DNA of 64,000 bases, from assembly GCF_001905595.1 (NCBI RefSeq), contig NZ_LIXI01000002.1:1-64000 (forward strand), written 5' to 3'. Below the pieces are notes generated by a model, which did not search any database, was not told where the DNA came from, and saw only the letters and a list, made by a program, of their open reading frames with translations. The first letter of the stretch is position 1. Each line of letters begins with the position of its first letter. The position numbers and the translations under genes were made by a program. Positions 9,983-23,454 of this stretch are shown here, piece after piece. This DNA comes from Streptomyces sp. CB00316 (GTDB lineage: Bacteria; Actinomycetota; Actinomycetes; Streptomycetales; Streptomycetaceae).

Positions 9983-10849
9983 TCACGGGCGGCGGCTCCC
10001 GGGGGCCGGGTCGGAGGTTCCACGGGCCGGGGCCTTGGTGGCGGTGGCCGAGGCGAGGTGGAGGCGGGTGAAGGCCAGGGCCTCGGCGAGGTCGGCCTCG
10101 CGTTCGGCGGAGGACATCGCCCGGCGGGTGTTGACCTCGATGACGACATGGCCGTCGAACGACGTACGGGCCAGCCGCTCCAGCAGCTCCGCGCACGGCT
10201 GGCCACCCCGACCGGGCACCAGGTGCTCGTCCTTGGCCGAGCCCTTGCCGTCGGCGAGGTGGACGTGGGCGAGCCGGTCGCCCATCCGGTCGACCATGGC
10301 GAGGCTGTCGGTGCGGGCGGTCGCGGTGTGCGAGAGGTCGACCGTGAAATGCCGGTAGTCGTCTTTGGTGACGTCCCACTCGGGGGCGTACGCGAGCATC
10401 TCGCGGTCCCGGTAGCGCCACGGGTACATGTTCTCGACGGCGAACCGGACATCCGTCTCGTCGGCCATCCGCCAGATCCCGGTCACGAAGTCCTTGGCGT
10501 AGTTGCGCTGCCACCGGAACGGCGGGTGCACCACGACGGTCGAGGCGCCGAGCTTCTCGGCGGCGGATTTCGCCCGCTGGAGCTTGACCCACGGGTCGGT
10601 GGACCAGACGCGCTGGGTGATCAGGAGACAGGGCGCGTGGACCGCCAGGATCGGGACCTGGTGATAGTCGGAGAGCCGGCGCAGGGCCTCGATGTCCTGG
10701 CTGACCGGGTCGGTCCAGACCATGACCTCGACACCGTCGTACCCCAGACGCGCGGCGATCTCGAAGGCCGTCGCGGTGGACTCGGGGTAGACCGAGGCCG
10801 TTGACAGGGCGACCTTCGCATCGGGGATGCGCACCACTGGTTCTGCCAC
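9983..10849 (-). CDS. sugar phosphate isomerase/epimerase-like TIM-barrel protein
   Basis: This 288-residue protein belongs to the AP-endonuclease-2/xylose-isomerase-like TIM-barrel superfamily. Typical strand-end motifs are visible: [51 protein letters not shown] and VVIEVNTR. The conserved His, Glu and Asp residues that bind metal in the family are in place. The substrate cannot be assigned. It sits in a same-strand run from the Ppx-like gene to the TetR gene, with short gaps. Confidence 0.85.
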
Positions 10850-10904
10850 CTGGACAGCGTACGGCCACCGGTGCGCGGCGCCGAGGGGCCCCGGCGGAAA
10901 GTGA

Positions 10905-12761
<1,857 letters not shown>

Positions 12762-12826
12762 CAGCGGCCTGCGTCGTTGCGTGGTCTGCGTCGGGTGTTG
12801 CCTCGTCCCCGTCGGGTGTTCCGTCG

Positions 12827-14719
12827 TCACTCCGTCGGGGCCGGGTCGCTCGGGTCGGTCGGGGGCGGGTCCGTGGGGTCCGGGCCGGGCGGGTCGGTCG
12901 GGTCGGTCGGATCGGGGTCGGTGGGTGTCGGTTCCGTGGGGCCCGGGTCGGTGGGGCCGGGGCCCGGATCGGTCGGACCCGGGTCCGTCGGGCCGGGATC
13001 GGTGGGGCTCGGGCCCGGGTCGGTCGGCCCCGGGTCCGTCGGGCGCGGGCCGGTCCCGTCCGTCGGGGCGGGGGAACCGGGGACGGGGCGCGCCGGGCCG
13101 GGGCTGGTGCTGGGCGGGGCCGTGGCGCCGCGCCCTTCGATGATCACGGCGGAGCCCGACGGATCCAGCGCGATCCGGGCGCGCCACGGGCCGCGCGGGG
13201 CCGCCGCGTGGTTCACGGCGACCGTGACGGTGGTGGACTTCCCGGCCGCGAGGGTGCCCGCCGTACGGCTCAGGCGCAGCCACCGCGCGTCCGTGGTGGC
13301 CGTCCAGTCGACCGGGCCCCGGGCGGAGGCGGTCAGCGTGATCGTCGTGAGCGCGCCGGAGGTCCGGACGGCCACCGTCAGTCGGCCCGCACTCTCCCGG
13401 TCGCCGCCGGTGCTGACGACCTCGGCCGTGACGTCCGGGGAGTGGACACCGCGCCGGTCGCCGGGGCGGGCGTTGCCCGCCTTCTCGTACGAGGTCCCGG
13501 GGGCCTCGCTCCGCTCCCCCGCGCCCTCGATCTCCGTGGCGGTGACCTTGGAGCCGTCGTGGCCCTCGCCGGTGAGCGGGGCTCCCCGGTACGCGGCCCA
13601 CAGGGCGATCACCGGGGCGGCGACCACCGTGGCGACCACCGTCGTCGTCACGACCCGGGCGCGCAGTCGGTCCCGGCGGGCGGCGTGGTCCTTGGGGTCC
13701 AGCGGGTAGCCGGTGCGGCCGAAGCGCGGGCCGCCCGAGCGGGAGCGCCGGGCCTGGGCCAGGGCGACGTGCACCGAGGGGCGGGGGGCCTCGACCAGCG
13801 GCAGCGGGGCGGTCGGGGCGACGGCGGCACCGGGCCAGGGGCCCGCTGCATCGACCCGTTCGGCGGCGCGGCGGCACCGGGGGCAGTCGTCGACGTGCCG
13901 GACCAGCTCGCGGCGCAGCGCGGCGGAGAGCAGCACCTGGTGGTCGCCGGTGAGCCGCGCGACGGTGGGGCAGCCGGCGGTCTCCACGACGGCGAGCGCG
14001 GCGCGGGTGCGCTCGACCTCGCAGGCCGCCGCCGCCAGCAGTTCCCGGGCGGTGAACGGCTCCAGGCCGAGCACGGAGGCGACGGCGCGCGGGGTGAGGC
14101 GGTGGCGTACGGCCAGTTCGAGCGCTTCACGCTGCTCCGGGGTGGTGCCCGCGGCCTCGGGCCAGGCGAGCGTGGCGAGCTCCCGGCGGCGGGCCTCGGC
14201 GGCCGGGGACTCGGCGGGGGCGGGGGTGGTGGCGTCCTCCGGGGTGAGGTGCGCGCCCTCGTGGCCTTCCGCGTCGGCTGACGGGCCCGTCACGGCGGCT
14301 GAGGCGCGCTCTGCGGGCCCCGCGCCCCTTGTCGGCGCCGGGGGCCTGCGGTGGGCCTGCCGGCCGCGCCTGCGCTCGGTGAGGGCGCGCAGGCACGTCC
14401 ACCGGGCCAGGGCGTAGAGCCAGGATTGACGTTCCTCCTCGGCCTCGGGGCACCGGGCGTCGTGCCGGTCCGCGATCGCCAGGACCGCACCGAGCGCCTC
14501 GGTCGCCGCCTCGTGGTCGCAGAGCACGGAGAGGCAGTAGGTGAAGAGTCCGTCGAGGTGCGGCTCGTAACGTGCGGCCGGTCGGTGGGCCGAGGTGTGA
14601 GGTGCTCGTCGGTGCGCCCGGTGTGCGCCGGTGGTGTGCGTAGGGGTCTGCAGCCTGCTGCTCGTCACCCGGCGACCGTAGGCAGAGGAGTACGTCCCCT
14701 TGGCGCCCCTTGAACACAT
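12827..14719 (-). CDS. sigma-factor-like membrane protein with zinc motif and BACON-like domain
   Basis: This single chain of 630 residues combines parts usually found on separate proteins. Residues 50-115 resemble sigma region 2 (LDGLFTYCLSVLCDHEAATE) and 193-245 resemble region 4 (TPEQREALELAVRHRLTP). HVDDCPRC (275-282) recalls the zinc motif of ZAS anti-sigma factors. One membrane helix lies at about 356-377. A BACON-like Ig fold follows at about 430-520, then a 100-residue tail of repeated PTDPGP units. I used the ATG at 14719, which follows AAGGA; the GTG at 14668 is an alternative start. DNA binding is unproven and promoter-contact residues may be lost. It is divergent from radA. Confidence 0.8.
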   Translation of the reverse strand: MCSRGAKGTYSSAYGRRVTSSRLQTPTHTTGAHRAHRRAPHTSAHRPAARYEPHLDGLFTYCLSVLCDHEAATEALGAVLAIADRHDARCPEAEEERQSWLYALARWTCLRALTERRRGRQAHRRPPAPTRGAGPAERASAAVTGPSADAEGHEGAHLTPEDATTPAPAESPAAEARRRELATLAWPEAAGTTPEQREALELAVRHRLTPRAVASVLGLEPFTARELLAAAACEVERTRAALAVVETAGCPTVARLTGDHQVLLSAALRRELVRHVDDCPRCRRAAERVDAAGPWPGAAVAPTAPLPLVEAPRPSVHVALAQARRSRSGGPRFGRTGYPLDPKDHAARRDRLRARVVTTTVVATVVAAPVIALWAAYRGAPLTGEGHDGSKVTATEIEGAGERSEAPGTSYEKAGNARPGDRRGVHSPDVTAEVVSTGGDRESAGRLTVAVRTSGALTTITLTASARGPVDWTATTDARWLRLSRTAGTLAAGKSTTVTVAVNHAAAPRGPWRARIALDPSGSAVIIEGRGATAPPSTSPGPARPVPGSPAPTDGTGPRPTDPGPTDPGPSPTDPGPTDPGPTDPGPGPTDPGPTEPTPTDPDPTDPTDPPGPDPTDPPPTDPSDPAPTE

Positions 14720-14868
14720 TTAATCCTTACGGGTGAACGTATCCCGCGAAAGGGGACGGGGATCACGGATTCCGTTCGACGTGCTTCCGTGCGCCCTCTG
14801 TGCGGAGGAGTTCCCCGCGCCCCCCTGCGCGGGCGGCGCTGTCGAGAGCCCACCTATACGGTGACGCC

Positions 14869-16281
14869 ATGGCTGCCCGTACGAAATCCGCGAAGGACCG
14901 GCCGTCCTACCGCTGTACCGAATGCGGCTGGACCACCGCCAAATGGCTCGGCCGTTGCCCCGAGTGCCAGGCGTGGGGGACGGTCGAGGAGTTCGGCGGC
15001 GCCCCCGCCGTGCGCACCACCGCGGCCGGCCGGGTCTCCACCGCCGCCGTGCCGATCGGCCAGGTCGACAGCCGCCAGGCCACCGCGCGCTCCACCGGCG
15101 TCGGGGAGCTGGACCGGGTGCTGGGCGGAGGGCTCGTGCCGGGGGCCGTCGTGCTGCTGGCGGGCGAGCCGGGCGTCGGCAAGTCGACGCTGCTGCTGGA
15201 CGTGGCGTCCAAGGCGGCGAGCGAGGACCACCGCACGCTCTATGTGACCGCCGAGGAGTCCGCGAGCCAGGTCCGGATGCGGGCCGACCGGATCAAGGCG
15301 ATCAACGACCACCTCTACCTCGCGGCGGAGACCGATCTGTCGGCAGTGCTCGGGCACCTGGACGCGGTGAAGCCCTCGTTGCTGATCCTGGACTCGGTGC
15401 AGACCGTCGCCTCGCCCGAGATCGACGGCGCGCCTGGCGGGATGGCCCAGGTCCGGGAGGTCGCCGGGGCGCTGATCCGGGCCTCCAAGGAGCGCGGGAT
15501 GGCCACGCTGCTCGTCGGCCATGTCACGAAGGACGGCGCGATCGCCGGGCCGCGGCTGCTGGAGCACCTGGTCGACGTGGTGCTCTCCTTCGAGGGCGAC
15601 CGCCACGCCCGGCTGCGCCTGGTCCGCGGCGTCAAGAACCGATACGGGGCGACCGACGAGGTCGGCTGCTTCGAGCTGCACGACGAGGGGATCACCGGCC
15701 TGGCCGACCCCTCGGGCCTCTTCCTGACCCGGCGCGACGTGGCGGTGCCCGGCACCTGCCTGACGGTGACGCTGGAGGGCAAGCGGCCCCTGGTCGCCGA
15801 GGTGCAGGCGCTCACCGTCGACTCCCAGATCCCCTCACCCCGGCGCACCACCTCCGGTCTGGAGACCTCCCGGGTCTCGATGATGCTCGCCGTGCTGGAG
15901 CAGCGCGGCCGGATCAGCGCACTGGGCAAGCGGGACATCTACAGCGCGACGGTCGGCGGCGTGAAGCTCACCGAGCCGGCGGCCGACCTCGCGATCGCGC
16001 TCGCGCTGGCCAGTGCCGCCAGCGACACCCCGCTCCCGAAGAACCTGGTCGCAATCGGTGAGGTGGGGCTCGCGGGCGAGGTCAGAAGGGTCACCGGAGT
16101 CCAGCGGAGACTGGCCGAGGCACACCGTCTCGGCTTCACCCACGCCTTGGTACCGACCGACCCGGGAAGGGTTCCTTCGGGTATGAAGGTCACAGAAGTC
16201 GCCGACATGGGGGATGCTCTGCGGGTCCTCCCGCGCCGGCCTCGTCAGGAGGCACCGCAGGAGGACAACGCGCGCCGGTAG
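14869..16281 (+). CDS. radA: DNA repair protein RadA
   Basis: RadA is a RecA-like ATPase that drives branch migration during recombinational repair. The 470-residue protein has an N-terminal C4 zinc finger (Cys16, 19, 30, 33). Walker A is GEPGVGKST (99-107), the RadA-specific loop is KNRYG, and the C-terminus is a Lon-like domain. The start is the ATG of MAARTKSAK; upstream in-frame codons have no RadA similarity. It is followed 81 bp later by disA on the same strand, the usual arrangement, and the two proteins are known to interact in other bacteria. Confidence 0.96.
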   Translation: MAARTKSAKDRPSYRCTECGWTTAKWLGRCPECQAWGTVEEFGGAPAVRTTAAGRVSTAAVPIGQVDSRQATARSTGVGELDRVLGGGLVPGAVVLLAGEPGVGKSTLLLDVASKAASEDHRTLYVTAEESASQVRMRADRIKAINDHLYLAAETDLSAVLGHLDAVKPSLLILDSVQTVASPEIDGAPGGMAQVREVAGALIRASKERGMATLLVGHVTKDGAIAGPRLLEHLVDVVLSFEGDRHARLRLVRGVKNRYGATDEVGCFELHDEGITGLADPSGLFLTRRDVAVPGTCLTVTLEGKRPLVAEVQALTVDSQIPSPRRTTSGLETSRVSMMLAVLEQRGRISALGKRDIYSATVGGVKLTEPAADLAIALALASAASDTPLPKNLVAIGEVGLAGEVRRVTGVQRRLAEAHRLGFTHALVPTDPGRVPSGMKVTEVADMGDALRVLPRRPRQEAPQEDNARR

Positions 16282-16362
16282 ACTTTGCCCTGGTCTCGCC
16301 CGCCCGTGGACACGGCATGGGGGACGCAAGGGCACCGCAAACCTGTCGACCGGAGGAGTGCA

Positions 16363-17487
16363 GTGGCAGCCAACGACCGGGCGACAGCGCCCGGAAAGTC
16401 CGGCCAAGGCACCGGTAACGAGGCGCTGATGCGCGCCTCGCTGAGCGCGGTCGCGCCCGGAATGGCCCTGCGGGACGGCCTGGAGCGCATTCTCCGGGGC
16501 AACACCGGCGGGCTGATCGTCCTGGGCATGGACAAGACCGTCGAATCGATGTGTACCGGCGGGTTCGTGCTGGACGTGGAGTTCACCGCGACCCGACTGC
16601 GCGAGCTGTGCAAGCTCGACGGGGCGCTGATCCTCGACAAGGACATGACCAAGATCCTGCGGGCCGGCGTGCAGCTGGTCCCGGACGCCTCGATCCACAC
16701 CGAGGAGACGGGTACCCGCCACCGTACGGCGGACCGGGTCTCCAAGGCATGCGGCTTCCCCGTCGTCTCGGTCTCCCAGTCCATGCGCCTGATCGCGCTG
16801 TACGTGGACGGGGAGCGGCGGGTCCTGGAGGAGTCCTCCGCGATCCTGTCCCGGGCCAACCAGGCGCTCGCCACCCTGGAGCGGTACAAGCTCCGCCTCG
16901 ACGAGGTGGCCGGCACGCTCTCCGCGCTGGAGATCGAGGACCTGGTCACCGTCCGGGACGTGACGGCGGTGGCGCAGCGACTGGAGATGGTGCGGCGGAT
17001 CGCGACCGAGATCGCGGAGTACGTGGTCGAGCTCGGCACCGACGGACGGCTCCTCTCGCTCCAGCTGGACGAGCTGATCGCGGGCGTGGAGCCGGAGCGG
17101 GAGCTGGTGGTCCGGGACTACGTGCCCGAGCCGACGGCGAAACGGTCACGCACGGTGGCGGAGGCGCTGACGGAGCTGGACGCGCTGAGCCACACGGAGC
17201 TGCTGGAGCTGCCGGTGGTGGCGCGGGCGCTGGGATACAGCGGCTCGCCCGAGACGCTGGACTCGGCGGTCTCGCCACGGGGTTTCCGGCTGCTGGCGAA
17301 GGTGCCGAGGCTGCCGGGGGCGATCATCGAGCGGCTGGTGGAGCACTTCGGTGGCCTGCAGAAGCTGCTGGCGGCGAGCGTGGACGACCTCCAGACCGTG
17401 GACGGGGTCGGGGAGGCGCGGGCGCGGAGCGTGCGGGAGGGGCTCTCGCGGCTGGCGGAGTCGTCGATCCTGGAGCGATACGTCTGA
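16363..17487 (+). CDS. disA: DNA integrity scanning diadenylate cyclase
   Basis: DisA makes the second messenger c-di-AMP from two ATP while scanning DNA for branched structures. The 374-residue protein has the DAC domain motifs DGA (86-88) and RHR (119-121). A helical linker follows, then a C-terminal RuvA-like helix-hairpin-helix domain ([19 protein letters not shown]). The GTG start at 16363 follows a perfect GGAGGAG. Length and motifs are complete, so the enzyme should be active. Confidence 0.97.
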
Positions 17488-19830: not shown

Positions 19831-20538
19831 ATGGCGCAGGGCGAGGTGCTCGCATTCGAGGACTACGTACGCACACGGCAGGAGGCGCTGCTGCGCAGCG
19901 CACGGCGTCTGGTCCCCGATCCCGTCGACGCCCAGGACCTGCTGCAGACCGCGCTGGTGCGGACGTACGGGCGCTGGGACGGCATCGCGGACAAGTCCCT
20001 CGCCGACGCCTATCTGCGCCGCGTCATGATCAACACCCGTACGGAGTGGTGGCGGGCGCGCAAGCTCGACGAGGTGCCCACCGAGCAGCTGCCCGACGCC
20101 AGCGTCGACGACGGCAGTGAGCAGCGCGCGGACCGTGCCCTGCTGATGGACATCCTCGGGATCCTGGCTCCGAAGCAGCGCAGCGTCGTCGTGCTGCGAC
20201 ACTGGGAGCAGATGAGCACGGAGGAGACGGCCGCGGCGCTCGGTATGTCGGCCGGTACGGTCAAGAGCACGCTGCACCGGGCGCTGGCGCGGCTGCGGCA
20301 GGAGCTGGAGAGCCGGGAGCTGACGAGCCGCGAGGCGGTCGCCCGGGAGACCGGGGGTCCGCGGCCGGCCGGGAGCGTCCGGAGTGCGGCGCCCGCCGCC
20401 ACCGGCCGGGTCCCGGCCCAGCGGACGAAGGCCTCCGCCACGGCGAAGGTCACCTCCGTCACGGCGGCGCGGGGACACACACCGGCGCCGCACGACAGGC
20501 GTCACGACGAGCGGGGGCGGGAACGGTGCGCGGCCTGA
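19831..20538 (+). CDS. sigE: ECF RNA polymerase sigma factor SigE
   Basis: SigE directs the cell-envelope stress regulon in Streptomyces. Region 2 (residues about 8-75, LLQTALVRTYGRWD) and region 4 (about 100-165, TVKSTLHRALARLRQELE) are intact. The operon order sigE-cseA-cseB-cseC makes the assignment firm. The protein is 235 residues, longer than the usual 170-190, because of a low-complexity tail after residue 165 rich in Ala, Arg and Thr. Its stop overlaps cseA by 13 bases. Family knowledge says CseB activates this promoter when CseC senses wall damage. Confidence 0.94.
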   Translation: MAQGEVLAFEDYVRTRQEALLRSARRLVPDPVDAQDLLQTALVRTYGRWDGIADKSLADAYLRRVMINTRTEWWRARKLDEVPTEQLPDASVDDGSEQRADRALLMDILGILAPKQRSVVVLRHWEQMSTEETAAALGMSAGTVKSTLHRALARLRQELESRELTSREAVARETGGPRPAGSVRSAAPAATGRVPAQRTKASATAKVTSVTAARGHTPAPHDRRHDERGRERCAA

Positions 20539-21335
20539 CAGCCAGCAGCGACGGCAGCGGGAACGGCGAGGGGAACCGCGGCGGGAACCTTGGCGAGAAC
20601 GGCGACGGGAGCGGCGGGACGAGCACCGACGACGGTGCCTCCTCCGGGAGACCCCGCCGGAACCGCGGGTTCCGGGCAGGTATGGCGGCGAGTGGTACGG
20701 CCCTGGCCGGACTCGCCGCCTTCGGGCTGTTCTGCGTCGGCTGCGCCACAGGCGGCACCGGTACCCGTGACGAGGGACCCGCCGGCACGCAGCCGGTCGT
20801 CCAGGTCTCCCCCCGCCCCACCCCCTCCGGCACGGCCCCGCCGACCCGGCGCGTCGACGCCGTGGGCCTCCTCAAGGGCGACCCCGCCGTGAGCGAGCGG
20901 GTCAGGGAGGGGCTCCGGCCCTGCGCCGGCAAGGCCTACCCGGTCGACACGTCCTACGGCTCCATGACCGGCGGCCCGTCCGCCGATGTCGTGGTCAACG
21001 TGATGAGCTGCGCCGACTCGGTGGGGCTGGGGACGTACGTCTACCGCGCCCGCGAGGACGGCTCGTACGAGAACGTCTTCACGGCCGAGGTCCCGGCCGT
21101 CTACGGAACCATCGACCGCGGCGACCTCGTGGTGACGACCCAGGTCTACGGATCGAAGGACCCGCTGGCCTACCCGTCCGGCTCCGAGGTGGTCACCTAC
21201 CGTTGGGCCGAGGGGCGCTTCACCGAGCACGACCGGGTGCACAACGACTTCAGCCGTGCCGTCGACGGCGGCGGTGACATCGAGGCGCCCACGCAGGCGG
21301 AACCGGTGGAACCGGCCGATCCGAGCGGGAACTGA
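20526..21335 (+). CDS. cseA: CseA lipoprotein, negative modulator of the SigE system
   Basis: In S. coelicolor CseA is an extracytoplasmic lipoprotein that dampens sigE expression. Here the 269-residue product has an unusual 50-residue Gly/Asn/Asp-rich start. An arginine cluster, a hydrophobic segment (about 52-70) and the lipobox-like CVGC with Cys73 follow. The exported domain runs from about 100 to 250. A start nearer the hydrophobic segment is possible. The gene overlaps sigE and is followed 18 bp later by cseB. Confidence 0.88.
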   Translation: MRGLTASSDGSGNGEGNRGGNLGENGDGSGGTSTDDGASSGRPRRNRGFRAGMAASGTALAGLAAFGLFCVGCATGGTGTRDEGPAGTQPVVQVSPRPTPSGTAPPTRRVDAVGLLKGDPAVSERVREGLRPCAGKAYPVDTSYGSMTGGPSADVVVNVMSCADSVGLGTYVYRAREDGSYENVFTAEVPAVYGTIDRGDLVVTTQVYGSKDPLAYPSGSEVVTYRWAEGRFTEHDRVHNDFSRAVDGGGDIEAPTQAEPVEPADPSGN

Positions 21336-21353
21336 AAGCGAGATACGACCTCC

Positions 21354-22067
21354 ATGGCCGAGACCCACGTCCTCTTCGTCGAGGACGACGATGTCATCCG
21401 TGAGGCCACCCAGCTCGCCCTGGAGCGGGTCGGCTTCACCGTCACCGCGATGCCCGACGGGCTCCTGGGCCTGGAGGCCTTCCGGGCCGACCGGCCGGAC
21501 ATCGCGCTGCTCGACGTGATGGTGCCGGGGCTCGACGGGGTGAGCCTGTGCCGCCGCATCCGGGACGAGTCGACCGTGCCCGTGATCATGCTCTCCGCGC
21601 GGGCCGACTCGATCGACGTGGTGCTCGGCCTGGAGGCCGGCGCGGACGACTACGTCACCAAGCCCTTCGACGGCGCCGTCCTGGTCGCCCGCATCCGGGC
21701 CGTGCTGCGCCGCTTCGGCCACGCGGCCGGGCCGGAGGGCACAGGCCAGGGCGGTACGGAGGGGGAGACCGAGGGGCTCGGCGGGGTGCTGGTCTTCGGC
21801 GACCTTGAGGTCGACACGGACGGCATGGAGGTGCGGCGCGGCGGTGAGCAGGTGGCGCTGACGCCCACCGAGATGCGACTGCTGCTGGAGTTCTCCTCGG
21901 CGCCCGGCACCGTACTCTCCCGCGACAAGCTCCTGGAGCGGGTCTGGGACTACGGCTGGGGCGGCGACACCCGGGTCGTGGACGTCCACGTCCAGCGGCT
22001 GCGCACCAAGATCGGCCAGGACCGGATCGAGACGGTCCGCGGCTTCGGCTACAAGCTGCGCGGATGA
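21354..22067 (+). CDS. cseB: CseB response regulator
   Basis: CseB is an OmpR/PhoB-type activator of sigE. The 237-residue protein has a receiver domain with Asp11-Asp12, phospho-acceptor Asp54 and Lys103. A winged-helix DNA-binding domain follows (LTPTEMRLLLEF, RVVDVHVQRLRTKIG). The two are joined by a Gly/Glu-rich linker around residue 125. Its stop TGA overlaps the ATG of the tiny repeat-encoded frame that leads into cseC. Confidence 0.95.
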   Translation: MAETHVLFVEDDDVIREATQLALERVGFTVTAMPDGLLGLEAFRADRPDIALLDVMVPGLDGVSLCRRIRDESTVPVIMLSARADSIDVVLGLEAGADDYVTKPFDGAVLVARIRAVLRRFGHAAGPEGTGQGGTEGETEGLGGVLVFGDLEVDTDGMEVRRGGEQVALTPTEMRLLLEFSSAPGTVLSRDKLLERVWDYGWGGDTRVVDVHVQRLRTKIGQDRIETVRGFGYKLRG

Positions 22068-22105
22068 GACGGCTGCGGATGAGACGGCTGCGGATGAGGC
22101 GGCCG
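22061..22105 (+). repeat. three tandem 15-bp repeats at the cseB-cseC junction
   Basis: CGGATGAGACGGCTG occurs twice (22061-22075 and 22076-22090), followed by the variant CGGATGAGGCGGCCG (22091-22105). The repeat spans the cseB stop and each copy carries an ATG in the same frame. Confidence 0.85.
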
Positions 22106-22120
22106 GTGACACGACCATGA
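22064..22120 (+). CDS. 18-codon micro-ORF coupling cseB to cseC
   Basis: The frame MRRLRMRRLRMRRPVTRP starts with ATGA overlapping the cseB stop and ends with ATGA overlapping the cseC start. Translation could therefore pass without a gap from cseB to cseC. The peptide is made by the 15-bp repeats and is very arginine-rich. A coupling role is more likely than a peptide function. I have no evidence that it is translated. Confidence 0.4.
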   Translation: MRRLRMRRLRMRRPVTRP

Positions 22121-23454
22121 AGCGACTGGCGCTGCGGACCGGTGTCCGCTGGAAGATCAGCATCGCCATCGCCGCGGTCGGCGCGCTCATCGCGGTGGCG
22201 CTCAGCCTCGTCGTGCACAATGCGGCCCGGGTCTCGATGATCGAGAACGCCCGCGAGGTGCAGCTGGAGCGGCTGCTGGGCGCGCAGCGGTTCTACGAGG
22301 CGACGAACATGCAGAAGGGCGGGCCCAAGTTCGGGGCGAAGCTCAACGACCCGGCGATCCCGCCGAGCCTGCGCGACGAGGTCCGCAAGAACCGGCGGGC
22401 CACCCATGTGACGGAGACCTCCGACGGGGTGCCCGATGTCTGGGCGGCCGTTCCGCTGGCCAACGGGGATGTGCTCTCGCTGCACACCCGGTTCGCGGAC
22501 CGCTCCGCGACGATCATGGACGACCTGGACCGGGCGCTGATCATCGGCTCGGTCTCCGTCGTCTTCGGCGGCTGCGCCCTCGGCGTCCTCATCGGCGGCC
22601 AGCTCTCCCGCCGACTGCGCAAGGCGGCGGCCGCGGCAGGCCGGGTCGCCGAGGGCCACACCGACGTGCGGGTGCGGGAGGCCGTCGGCGGGGTCGTCCG
22701 TGACGAGACGGACGAGCTGGCGCGGGCGGTCGACGCGCTGACCGACGCGCTGAACGAGCGGATCGAGGCGGAGCGCCGGGTCACGGCCGACATCGCCCAC
22801 GAGCTGCGTACGCCGGTGACCGGGCTGCTCACGGCCGCCGAACTGCTGCCGCCGGGCCGCCCGACCGAGCTGGTACGGGACCGGGCCCAGGCGATGCGGA
22901 CGCTGGTCGAGGACGTGCTGGAGGTGGCCCGCCTGGACAGTGCCTCGGAGCGGGCAGAGCTCCAGGAGCTGCCGCTCGGGGAGTTCGTCAGCCGGCGGAT
23001 CGGGCTGCTCGACCCGGACGTGACCGTGCAGGTGGTGCACGAGTCCTGGGTCTCCACGGACCCGCGCCGCCTGGAGCGCATCCTCGGCAACCTCCTCGGC
23101 AACGCCGCCAAGCACGGCTCCACCCCGGTGGAGGTCACGGTGGAGGGCCGGGTGGTGCGGGTCCGGGACCACGGTCCGGGGTTTCCGGAGGAACTGCTGC
23201 GGGACGGGCCGAGCCGGTTCCGTACGGGCTCCATGGACCGGGCCGGGCACGGGCACGGGCTGGGCCTGACGATCGCGGCGGGGCAGGCAAGGGTGCTGGG
23301 GGCCAGGCTGACCTTCCGGAACGCGGCGCCCTCGGGTGCGTCGGAGGGCACGGGCGGGGCGATCGCGGTGCTGTGGCTGCCGGAGCACGCGCCGACGGCG
23401 ACGGGGAGCTTCCCGATGCCGCGGACGGTGGGCGAGCGGCAGCCGCAGGGGTGA
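22117..23454 (+). CDS. cseC: CseC sensor histidine kinase
   Basis: CseC senses cell-wall damage and phosphorylates CseB. The 445-residue protein has membrane helices at about 14-34 and 141-161, enclosing a roughly 105-residue sensor domain outside the cell. A HAMP linker follows (165-215). The H-box is ADIAHELRTPV (His228) and the ATP-binding domain has N (LLGNAAKHG), G1 (DHGPGF) and G2 (GHGLGL) boxes. The ATG overlaps the stop of the micro-ORF above. All signalling residues are present. Confidence 0.95.
   Translation: MKRLALRTGVRWKISIAIAAVGALIAVALSLVVHNAARVSMIENAREVQLERLLGAQRFYEATNMQKGGPKFGAKLNDPAIPPSLRDEVRKNRRATHVTETSDGVPDVWAAVPLANGDVLSLHTRFADRSATIMDDLDRALIIGSVSVVFGGCALGVLIGGQLSRRLRKAAAAAGRVAEGHTDVRVREAVGGVVRDETDELARAVDALTDALNERIEAERRVTADIAHELRTPVTGLLTAAELLPPGRPTELVRDRAQAMRTLVEDVLEVARLDSASERAELQELPLGEFVSRRIGLLDPDVTVQVVHESWVSTDPRRLERILGNLLGNAAKHGSTPVEVTVEGRVVRVRDHGPGFPEELLRDGPSRFRTGSMDRAGHGHGLGLTIAAGQARVLGARLTFRNAAPSGASEGTGGAIAVLWLPEHAPTATGSFPMPRTVGERQPQG

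Follow-up and report, generated by a model that had tools for sequence, protein, structure and literature searches.

Streptomyces genomes carry, next to radA, a gene for a single protein chain that joins a sigma-like pair of helical domains, an anti-sigma-like zinc motif of the ZAS type, one membrane helix and a predicted extracellular BACON domain, and in which the signature residues of a sigma factor are lost although the fold remains under strong selection. On balance, we favor the view that this protein is a membrane-anchored pseudo-sigma/ZAS module that arose from a working fused ECF sensor and probably serves now as a binding platform. The gene was analyzed in a window of 64,000 nucleotides, namely positions 1 to 64,000 of contig NZ_LIXI01000002.1 of Streptomyces sp. 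CB00316.

Results

Gene, start codon and upstream region

The original prediction placed one gene at window positions 12827-14719, and an open reading frame (ORF) of 630 amino acids on the minus strand matches these coordinates exactly. The reality of the gene is attested by syntenic orthologues at 80 loci and by dN/dS values far lower than 1 for the membrane helix and the cytoplasmic domains; a pseudogene or a chance ORF is ruled out by the dN/dS values obtained against 6 orthologues. The predicted start, however, lies 17 codons too early. Among 81 aligned upstream regions, the ATG at ORF residue 1 shows no conservation, whereas the GTG at residue 18 or, in some, the next codon, ATG, at residue 19 is the conserved start. 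Because of this pattern, the protein of the window probably comprises 613 amino acids, with the start at position 14668. Residues are numbered here from the first codon of the listed ORF.

The same 81 regions revealed a strongly conserved block of about 43 bp directly before the listed ORF. No second copy of its 18-base core was found elsewhere in the genome of this strain at up to 2 mismatches; at up to 3 mismatches, there were 7 genome matches in all, compared to 0 for the reversed control. Rfam gave no match within positions 10800-16500. The conserved motif may be a regulator site instead of an autoregulatory promoter.

From the N-terminus, the protein consists of a sigma2-like domain, a linker, a sigma4-like domain, the ZAS zinc motif, the membrane helix, the BACON_2 domain and a tail of about 100 residues, with the following coordinates.

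12827..14668, minus strand: whole gene with the conserved start (GTG, ORF residue 18); the listed ORF extends to 14719
14720..14762, minus strand: conserved block, probable promoter or leader, from 81 aligned upstream regions
14366..14569, minus strand: sigma2-like domain (residues 51-118), without the Asp/Gln signature of region 2.2
14198..14365, minus strand: variable linker (residues 119-174), from conservation, dN/dS and the model
13976..14197, minus strand: sigma4-like domain (residues 175-248), recognition helix neutral
13850..13972, minus strand: ZAS-like zinc motif C250-x24-H275-x3-C279-x2-C282 (residues 250-290), from alignments
13580..13663, minus strand: one membrane helix (residues 353-380), with many Arg on the side of the zinc domain
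13130..13399, minus strand: BACON_2 or Ig-like domain, predicted extracellular (residues 441-530), from Pfam and the model
12830..13129, minus strand: Pro/Asp/Thr tail (residues 531-630), poorly conserved

Domains, conservation and selection

Orthologues were taken as the best 80 loci from a scan of species genomes, which together with the protein of the window make up the set of 81. A broader alignment, A1, holds 27 of 31 trimmed homologues from three groups, with L019 and three second-copy genes left out. The four zinc ligands, C250, H275, C279 and C282 (C204, H229, C233 and C236 in A1 numbering), are invariant in 27/27 homologues of A1 and in 81/81 orthologues, so that the zinc motif claimed in the original prediction stands. 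The corresponding Pfam model, zf-HC2, scores 12.7 bits in the window protein, below the cut-off of 22.2, and is listed for 43/73 scanned orthologues, with a best E of 0.025 that is likewise under the curated cut-off. BACON_2 (PF19190) is the sole Pfam match over the cut-off (residues 454-510, 30.8 bits vs 25) and is listed in all 73 scanned orthologues at E<=0.1. Neither the Pfam sigma2 model (Sigma70_r2) nor a receiver domain is among the matches of the window protein at E<=1, and NCBIfam gave only sub-threshold sigma-70 models, the best with E 2.3e-4 over residues 30-236.

The remaining parts of the predicted layout are also borne out. A single membrane helix is placed at about residues 353-380 by hydropathy, and, downstream of the zinc motif, a hydrophobic helix is present in 75/80 orthologous loci, some of which stop at contig ends; the outside Ig-like domain corresponds to BACON_2; and the stalk of about 100 residues rich in Pro, Asp and Thr is found at about residues 531-630, among the least conserved parts of the protein. 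Conservation peaks in the cytoplasmic motifs (residues 191-200, 231-240 and 271-280, with 98-100% mean identity) and in the membrane helix; the BACON domain is weakly conserved, and the linker and the tail are the least conserved of all. Rough dN/dS values, calculated over short stretches against 6 of the 80 orthologues, were 0.19-0.44 for sigma2, 0.07-0.23 for sigma4, 0.05-0.39 for ZAS, 0-0.19 for the membrane helix, 0.57-0.85 for BACON and 0.38-1.71 for the linker.

Predicted fold

Two AlphaFold2 models were built. Model 1 covers residues 36-530 and used alignment A2 (the window protein and 72 of the 80 orthologues); its mean pLDDT is 73.4 and its pTM 0.56, with pLDDT of about 90 in sigma2, about 75-88 in sigma4 and about 92-97 in BACON. 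Model 2 covers the cytoplasmic residues 45-300 and used alignment A3 (the window protein and all 80 orthologues), with a mean pLDDT of 75.6 and a pTM of 0.46. The comparison with ECF sigma factors that had been proposed as a check of the original prediction yielded an ECF-like sigma fold in both VIA and Foldseek. Bearing in mind that VIA scores below a Z of about 13 can be common among helical folds, the matches of model 1 were RpoE/NepR (5uxx; Z 11.7, rmsd 3.0, 146 aligned), SigW/RsiW (5wuq; Z 10.8, rmsd 3.8, 142 aligned), SigG1 (7qh5; Z 9.7) and PhyR (4qic; Z 9.4), and those of the cytoplasmic model were 9m9d (Z 9.8, rmsd 3.1, 76 aligned) and SigH (6kop; Z 9.5, rmsd 2.1, 71 aligned); taken by domain, sigma2 of the latter model matches ECF sigma factors with Z 8-10, and sigma4 matches 3hug and 2h27 with Z of only 4.7-5.2. 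The BACON part of model 1 matches the GH115 structure 4zmh (Z 10.2) as well as MSP/PapD-like domains. In Foldseek, the first 29 rows for the cytoplasmic model are sigma factor or PhyR chains by their entry titles, none of them at E<=0.001.

These predictions suggest an ECF-type sigma2-sigma4 fold that is well supported for sigma2 and moderately supported for sigma4; model confidence is moderate overall, so that any packing of the domains, including that of ZAS on the sigma-like part, is tentative. Searched by sequence against solved structures, the single protein gave no match, and the four rows obtained with the orthologue profile (E 0.026-0.33), which comprise three PhyR-like entries and, as the top row, an unrelated peroxygenase, are given no weight.

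Distribution and descent

Matches to the window protein were found in 38/41 genomes searched, its own included. Within the genus, 22/24 genomes match, and the two without a match are draft assemblies of 630 and 740 contigs. Across the class, the A1 profile matches 57/296 genomes at E<=1e-10, 28 of them in the family to which the strain belongs. All of the best 80 orthologous loci are Streptomyces by title except L071 ('Actinobacteria bacterium OV320'). No viral relatives were detected in the scan of viral contigs or in PHROGs. In the genome of the strain itself, the family profile retrieved, besides the gene, two plain ECF-like ORFs (E 6e-6 and 1e-3).

The product of the adjacent, divergent gene in the window was identified as RadA, as the original prediction had it, and this arrangement is nearly universal: radA adjoins the gene on the opposite strand in 79/80 Streptomyces loci, the sole exception being L084, a locus of 7.4 kb with no radA, and disA is on the opposite strand in 79/80 as well. 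On the other side, ppx lies on the same strand as the gene in 67/67 loci longer than 12 kb. A tandem pair of sigma-ZAS-membrane genes occupies the interval between radA and ppx in six loci from two other families (L135-L140). Among the loci in which the first-copy gene was scanned, six (L023, L024, L027, L029, L135 and L138) have no H-x3-C-x2-C motif in it. A quick tree, rooted on a single long ECF52 branch and including 14 chosen radA-linked Streptomyces rows, grouped the radA-linked proteins of Streptomyces with the second genes by radA from the two other families in one clade (support 99). Adjacent to this clade, at lower support (82), stands L111, which adjoins radA on the same strand and has a sigma2 match of 42.4 bits.

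Loss of sigma signature residues

The 81 orthologues were aligned with two other groups, namely 17 ECF-like references from the genome of the strain and 22 distant fused relatives. The 17 references were picked as ECF-like from 30 fetched of the 47 sigma2 matches in the genome and include the fused proteins L154, L164 and L170; the 13 dropped are primary-like factors and other sigma groups (among them L158), and one reference that was kept, L168, aligns poorly in sigma4. In region 2.2, Asp at position 74 is present in 16/17 of the references and 17/22 of the distant relatives, but in only 4/81 orthologues, and Gln at position 77 is present in 15/17 and 10/22, respectively, compared to 0/81 orthologues, all 81 of which have Gly. 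The Asn of the 2.3-2.4 helix, found in 10/17 references and 11/22 relatives, is replaced by Trp in 81/81 orthologues. Arg at positions 227, 230 and 232 occurs in 10/17, 13/17 and 8/17 references and in 3/22, 15/22 and 20/22 relatives, and in 0/81 orthologues at each position. We take the Asp and Gln of region 2.2 to be contacts with core polymerase and the basic positions of region 4.2 to be contacts with -35 DNA. Consistently, the net charge of the recognition helix falls from +3.4 in the references and +1.5 in the distant relatives to 0.0 in the orthologues. Residues W100, R197, L202 and L208, which are expected to hold the fold, are present in 81/81 orthologues.

The Pfam matches show a similar divergence. 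At E<=0.1, the sigma2 model is listed for 6/73 scanned orthologues, with a best E of 0.014 that does not reach the cut-off, whereas this cut-off is passed by 9/10 scanned relatives, the exception being the radA-linked second gene L135. The model of the PhyR sigma-like domain, PF22233, is listed for 24/73 (best E 0.002). Because the contact signatures were lost while purifying selection stayed strong, the sequences argue for a changed role rather than decay.

Several features run against this interpretation. Region 2.2 remains acidic (net charge -2.0 in the references, -2.6 in the distant relatives and -2.1 in the orthologues) and the 2.3-2.4 helix remains basic (+3.3, +3.9 and +3.2, respectively), so that contact with core or with the -10 element is possible. 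Two of the lost residues are often missing in relatives, most of which, among those scanned, pass the Pfam sigma2 cut-off: Arg227 is the rarest of the three arginines there, and Gln77 is not universal, with His in 7/22. Asp74 is retained in 4/6 radA-linked homologues outside Streptomyces, and weak matches to the Pfam sigma4_2 model persist in 41/73 scanned orthologues (best E 1.3e-4, under its cut-off).

Genomic neighborhood

In Streptomyces coelicolor, SCO3351 is RadA (part of PMC3897704) and SCO3348 is a candidate exopolyphosphatase (part of PMC4433243), with one other gene in between; from this position, the orthologue is inferred to be SCO3350. A search of papers, outside their supplements, by the locus tags SCO3347-SCO3352 found none that names SCO3350. 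Between the sigma-like gene and ppx in the window, at approximately 11906-12761 on the plus strand, a protein gene convergent with the sigma-like gene reads PKTKKAKQ... About 5 kb away from the sigma-like gene, at 19831-23454, lies a cell-envelope stress locus that consists of a SigE-family sigma factor, a small protein gene, CseB and CseC; the NCBIfam matches for the SigE family, CseB and CseC are over the cut-off.

Discussion

Fused proteins of this kind have precedents. ECF48, ECF52 and ECF53 are described, in the part of PMC8999054 that deals with them, as sigma factors that carry a fused zinc finger together with one or two membrane helices and are expected to become active through proteolysis. 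The ECF52 protein SCO4117 consists of sigma, a zinc finger, a membrane helix, a Pro-rich region and a carbohydrate-binding module (part of PMC5826349), and ECF52/53 proteins may bear glycosyl hydrolase or carbohydrate-binding domains (part of PMC10766802). Like SCO4117, the window protein combines in a single chain sigma2-sigma4, a ZAS zinc finger, a membrane helix, a Pro-rich region and a domain on the outside. In ECF52, however, sigma2 is over the Pfam cut-off and an NPCBM domain is C-terminal, whereas the window protein has lost the sigma signatures and carries BACON before the Pro-rich tail. Membership in ECF52 is ruled out: no carbohydrate-binding module follows the Pro-rich region, and the genome encodes a separate ECF52-like ORF of 725 amino acids with NPCBM (L179). 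ECF48 and ECF53 are likewise actinobacterial sigma proteins, with a zinc finger at the C-terminus and either one or two membrane helices, a general plan that the window protein shares. Three more ORFs of the genome combine sigma, the ZAS motif and a membrane helix with outside CAP or AbfB domains (L154, L164 and L170, detected through sigma2 rather than the family profile), and sigma2 is over the Pfam cut-off in these three and L179 (4/4); by inference, L154, L164 and L170, along with the distant relatives L112-L130, are candidate members of ECF48/ECF53. Hence the architecture itself has been described before, and the radA-linked branch, which has BACON but not the sigma signatures, represents a variant of it. 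A literature search that combined BACON domains with sigma factors in Streptomyces brought up one, apparently unrelated, paper. The protein also resembles class I (ZAS) anti-sigma factors, such as RsiW and RslA, whose zinc motif likewise lies on the cytoplasmic face of one membrane helix, and its sigma part matches SigW as found with RsiW; it differs from them in that the ZAS domain is covalently joined to a sigma-like part and zf-HC2 is below the Pfam cut-off.

The original prediction offered two readings, namely a single membrane sensor made by fusion of a sigma with an anti-sigma, or a scaffold that was once a sigma factor. The first holds by descent; the architecture has been described in Actinobacteria and occurs four more times in this genome. 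The second fits better by residue content, and we prefer it because the signatures for core binding and for -35 recognition are lost across the 81 orthologues while the fold is under purifying selection; a scaffold or antagonist function would accord with such a pattern of residues.

Under the model that we favor, the inner part would have lost the capacity to start transcription and would act as a binding platform at the membrane. Sigma2 and sigma4 would probably be clamped in cis by the ZAS domain fused to them. A signal perceived by BACON could be relayed through the helix by a change of shape or by regulated proteolysis, and would then expose one of two surfaces: the sigma-like one, for binding of a free anti-sigma factor in the manner of PhyR, or that of ZAS, for binding of a free sigma factor. 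By analogy, the sigma-like domain of PhyR is the closest functional precedent: it has a sigma fold that does not serve as a sigma factor, it matches the model (4qic), and the weak PF22233 matches point the same way. The window protein differs from PhyR in that it has no receiver domain, is anchored in the membrane and possesses its own ZAS domain. One conceivable form of the mechanism, which we advance tentatively, is a membrane-tethered sigma mimic like PhyR, in one chain with its own ZAS, in which BACON gates the capture of a free anti-sigma (or sigma) factor; another ECF regulon would thereby be controlled post-translationally, with the mimic itself not transcribing.

Somewhat doubtful, in our estimation, is the alternative of an ECF sigma factor that has diverged but still works, with its anti-sigma fused to it, and that proteolysis frees from the membrane, as has been proposed for SCO4117. 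The domain order as far as the membrane helix is the same as that given for SCO4117 in the part of the source cited above, the sigma fold is kept along with the charges of region 2.2 and the 2.3-2.4 helix, and the sigma2 of relatives from other families passes the Pfam cut-off. However, Gln77 and the basic recognition-helix positions are gone from every orthologue, leaving that helix neutral, and none of the 73 scanned orthologues has sigma2 over the cut-off. Moreover, a shared autoregulatory promoter was not seen, the upstream block having no second copy at up to 2 mismatches, although the matches at up to 3 exceed the control.

It is improbable, too, that the ZAS part acts in trans as the anti-sigma for a separate sigma factor, such as the nearby SigE, with the sigma-like part as an internal plug. 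The invariance of the zinc ligands, the place of ZAS among the most conserved parts and the presence of the sigE-cse genes in the same window are all compatible with a function of this type. Yet the proximity to sigE, across radA-disA, may be due to chance, and SigE is controlled by CseB/CseC and is not known to be under an anti-sigma. A role of the cytoplasmic part in the service of its neighbors RadA or DisA (DNA repair or c-di-AMP), not transcription, is very unlikely despite the divergent linkage in 79/80 Streptomyces loci and in the six tandem-copy loci of other families, because no domain connects the protein to them, separate promoters would fit into the intergenic region, conserved linkage does not by itself prove joint function and, in L111, the gene is on the strand of radA rather than divergent from it.

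Fused sigma/anti-sigma proteins are known and are presumed to release an active sigma factor. The protein described here, which is retained across Streptomyces, has lost the sigma signatures, yet strong selection still acts on its fold. If the pseudo-sigma reading is true, it traces a route in Actinobacteria from a one-component sigma sensor to a sigma mimic, a state best known from the alphaproteobacterial PhyR, and implies that annotation by sigma-like domains overcounts sigma factors.

As a separate observation, the sigma-like part contains additional conserved cysteines: C62, C109 and C233 are invariant in the 81 orthologues and C67 is present in 80/81, a pattern for which a redox or metal role is possible.
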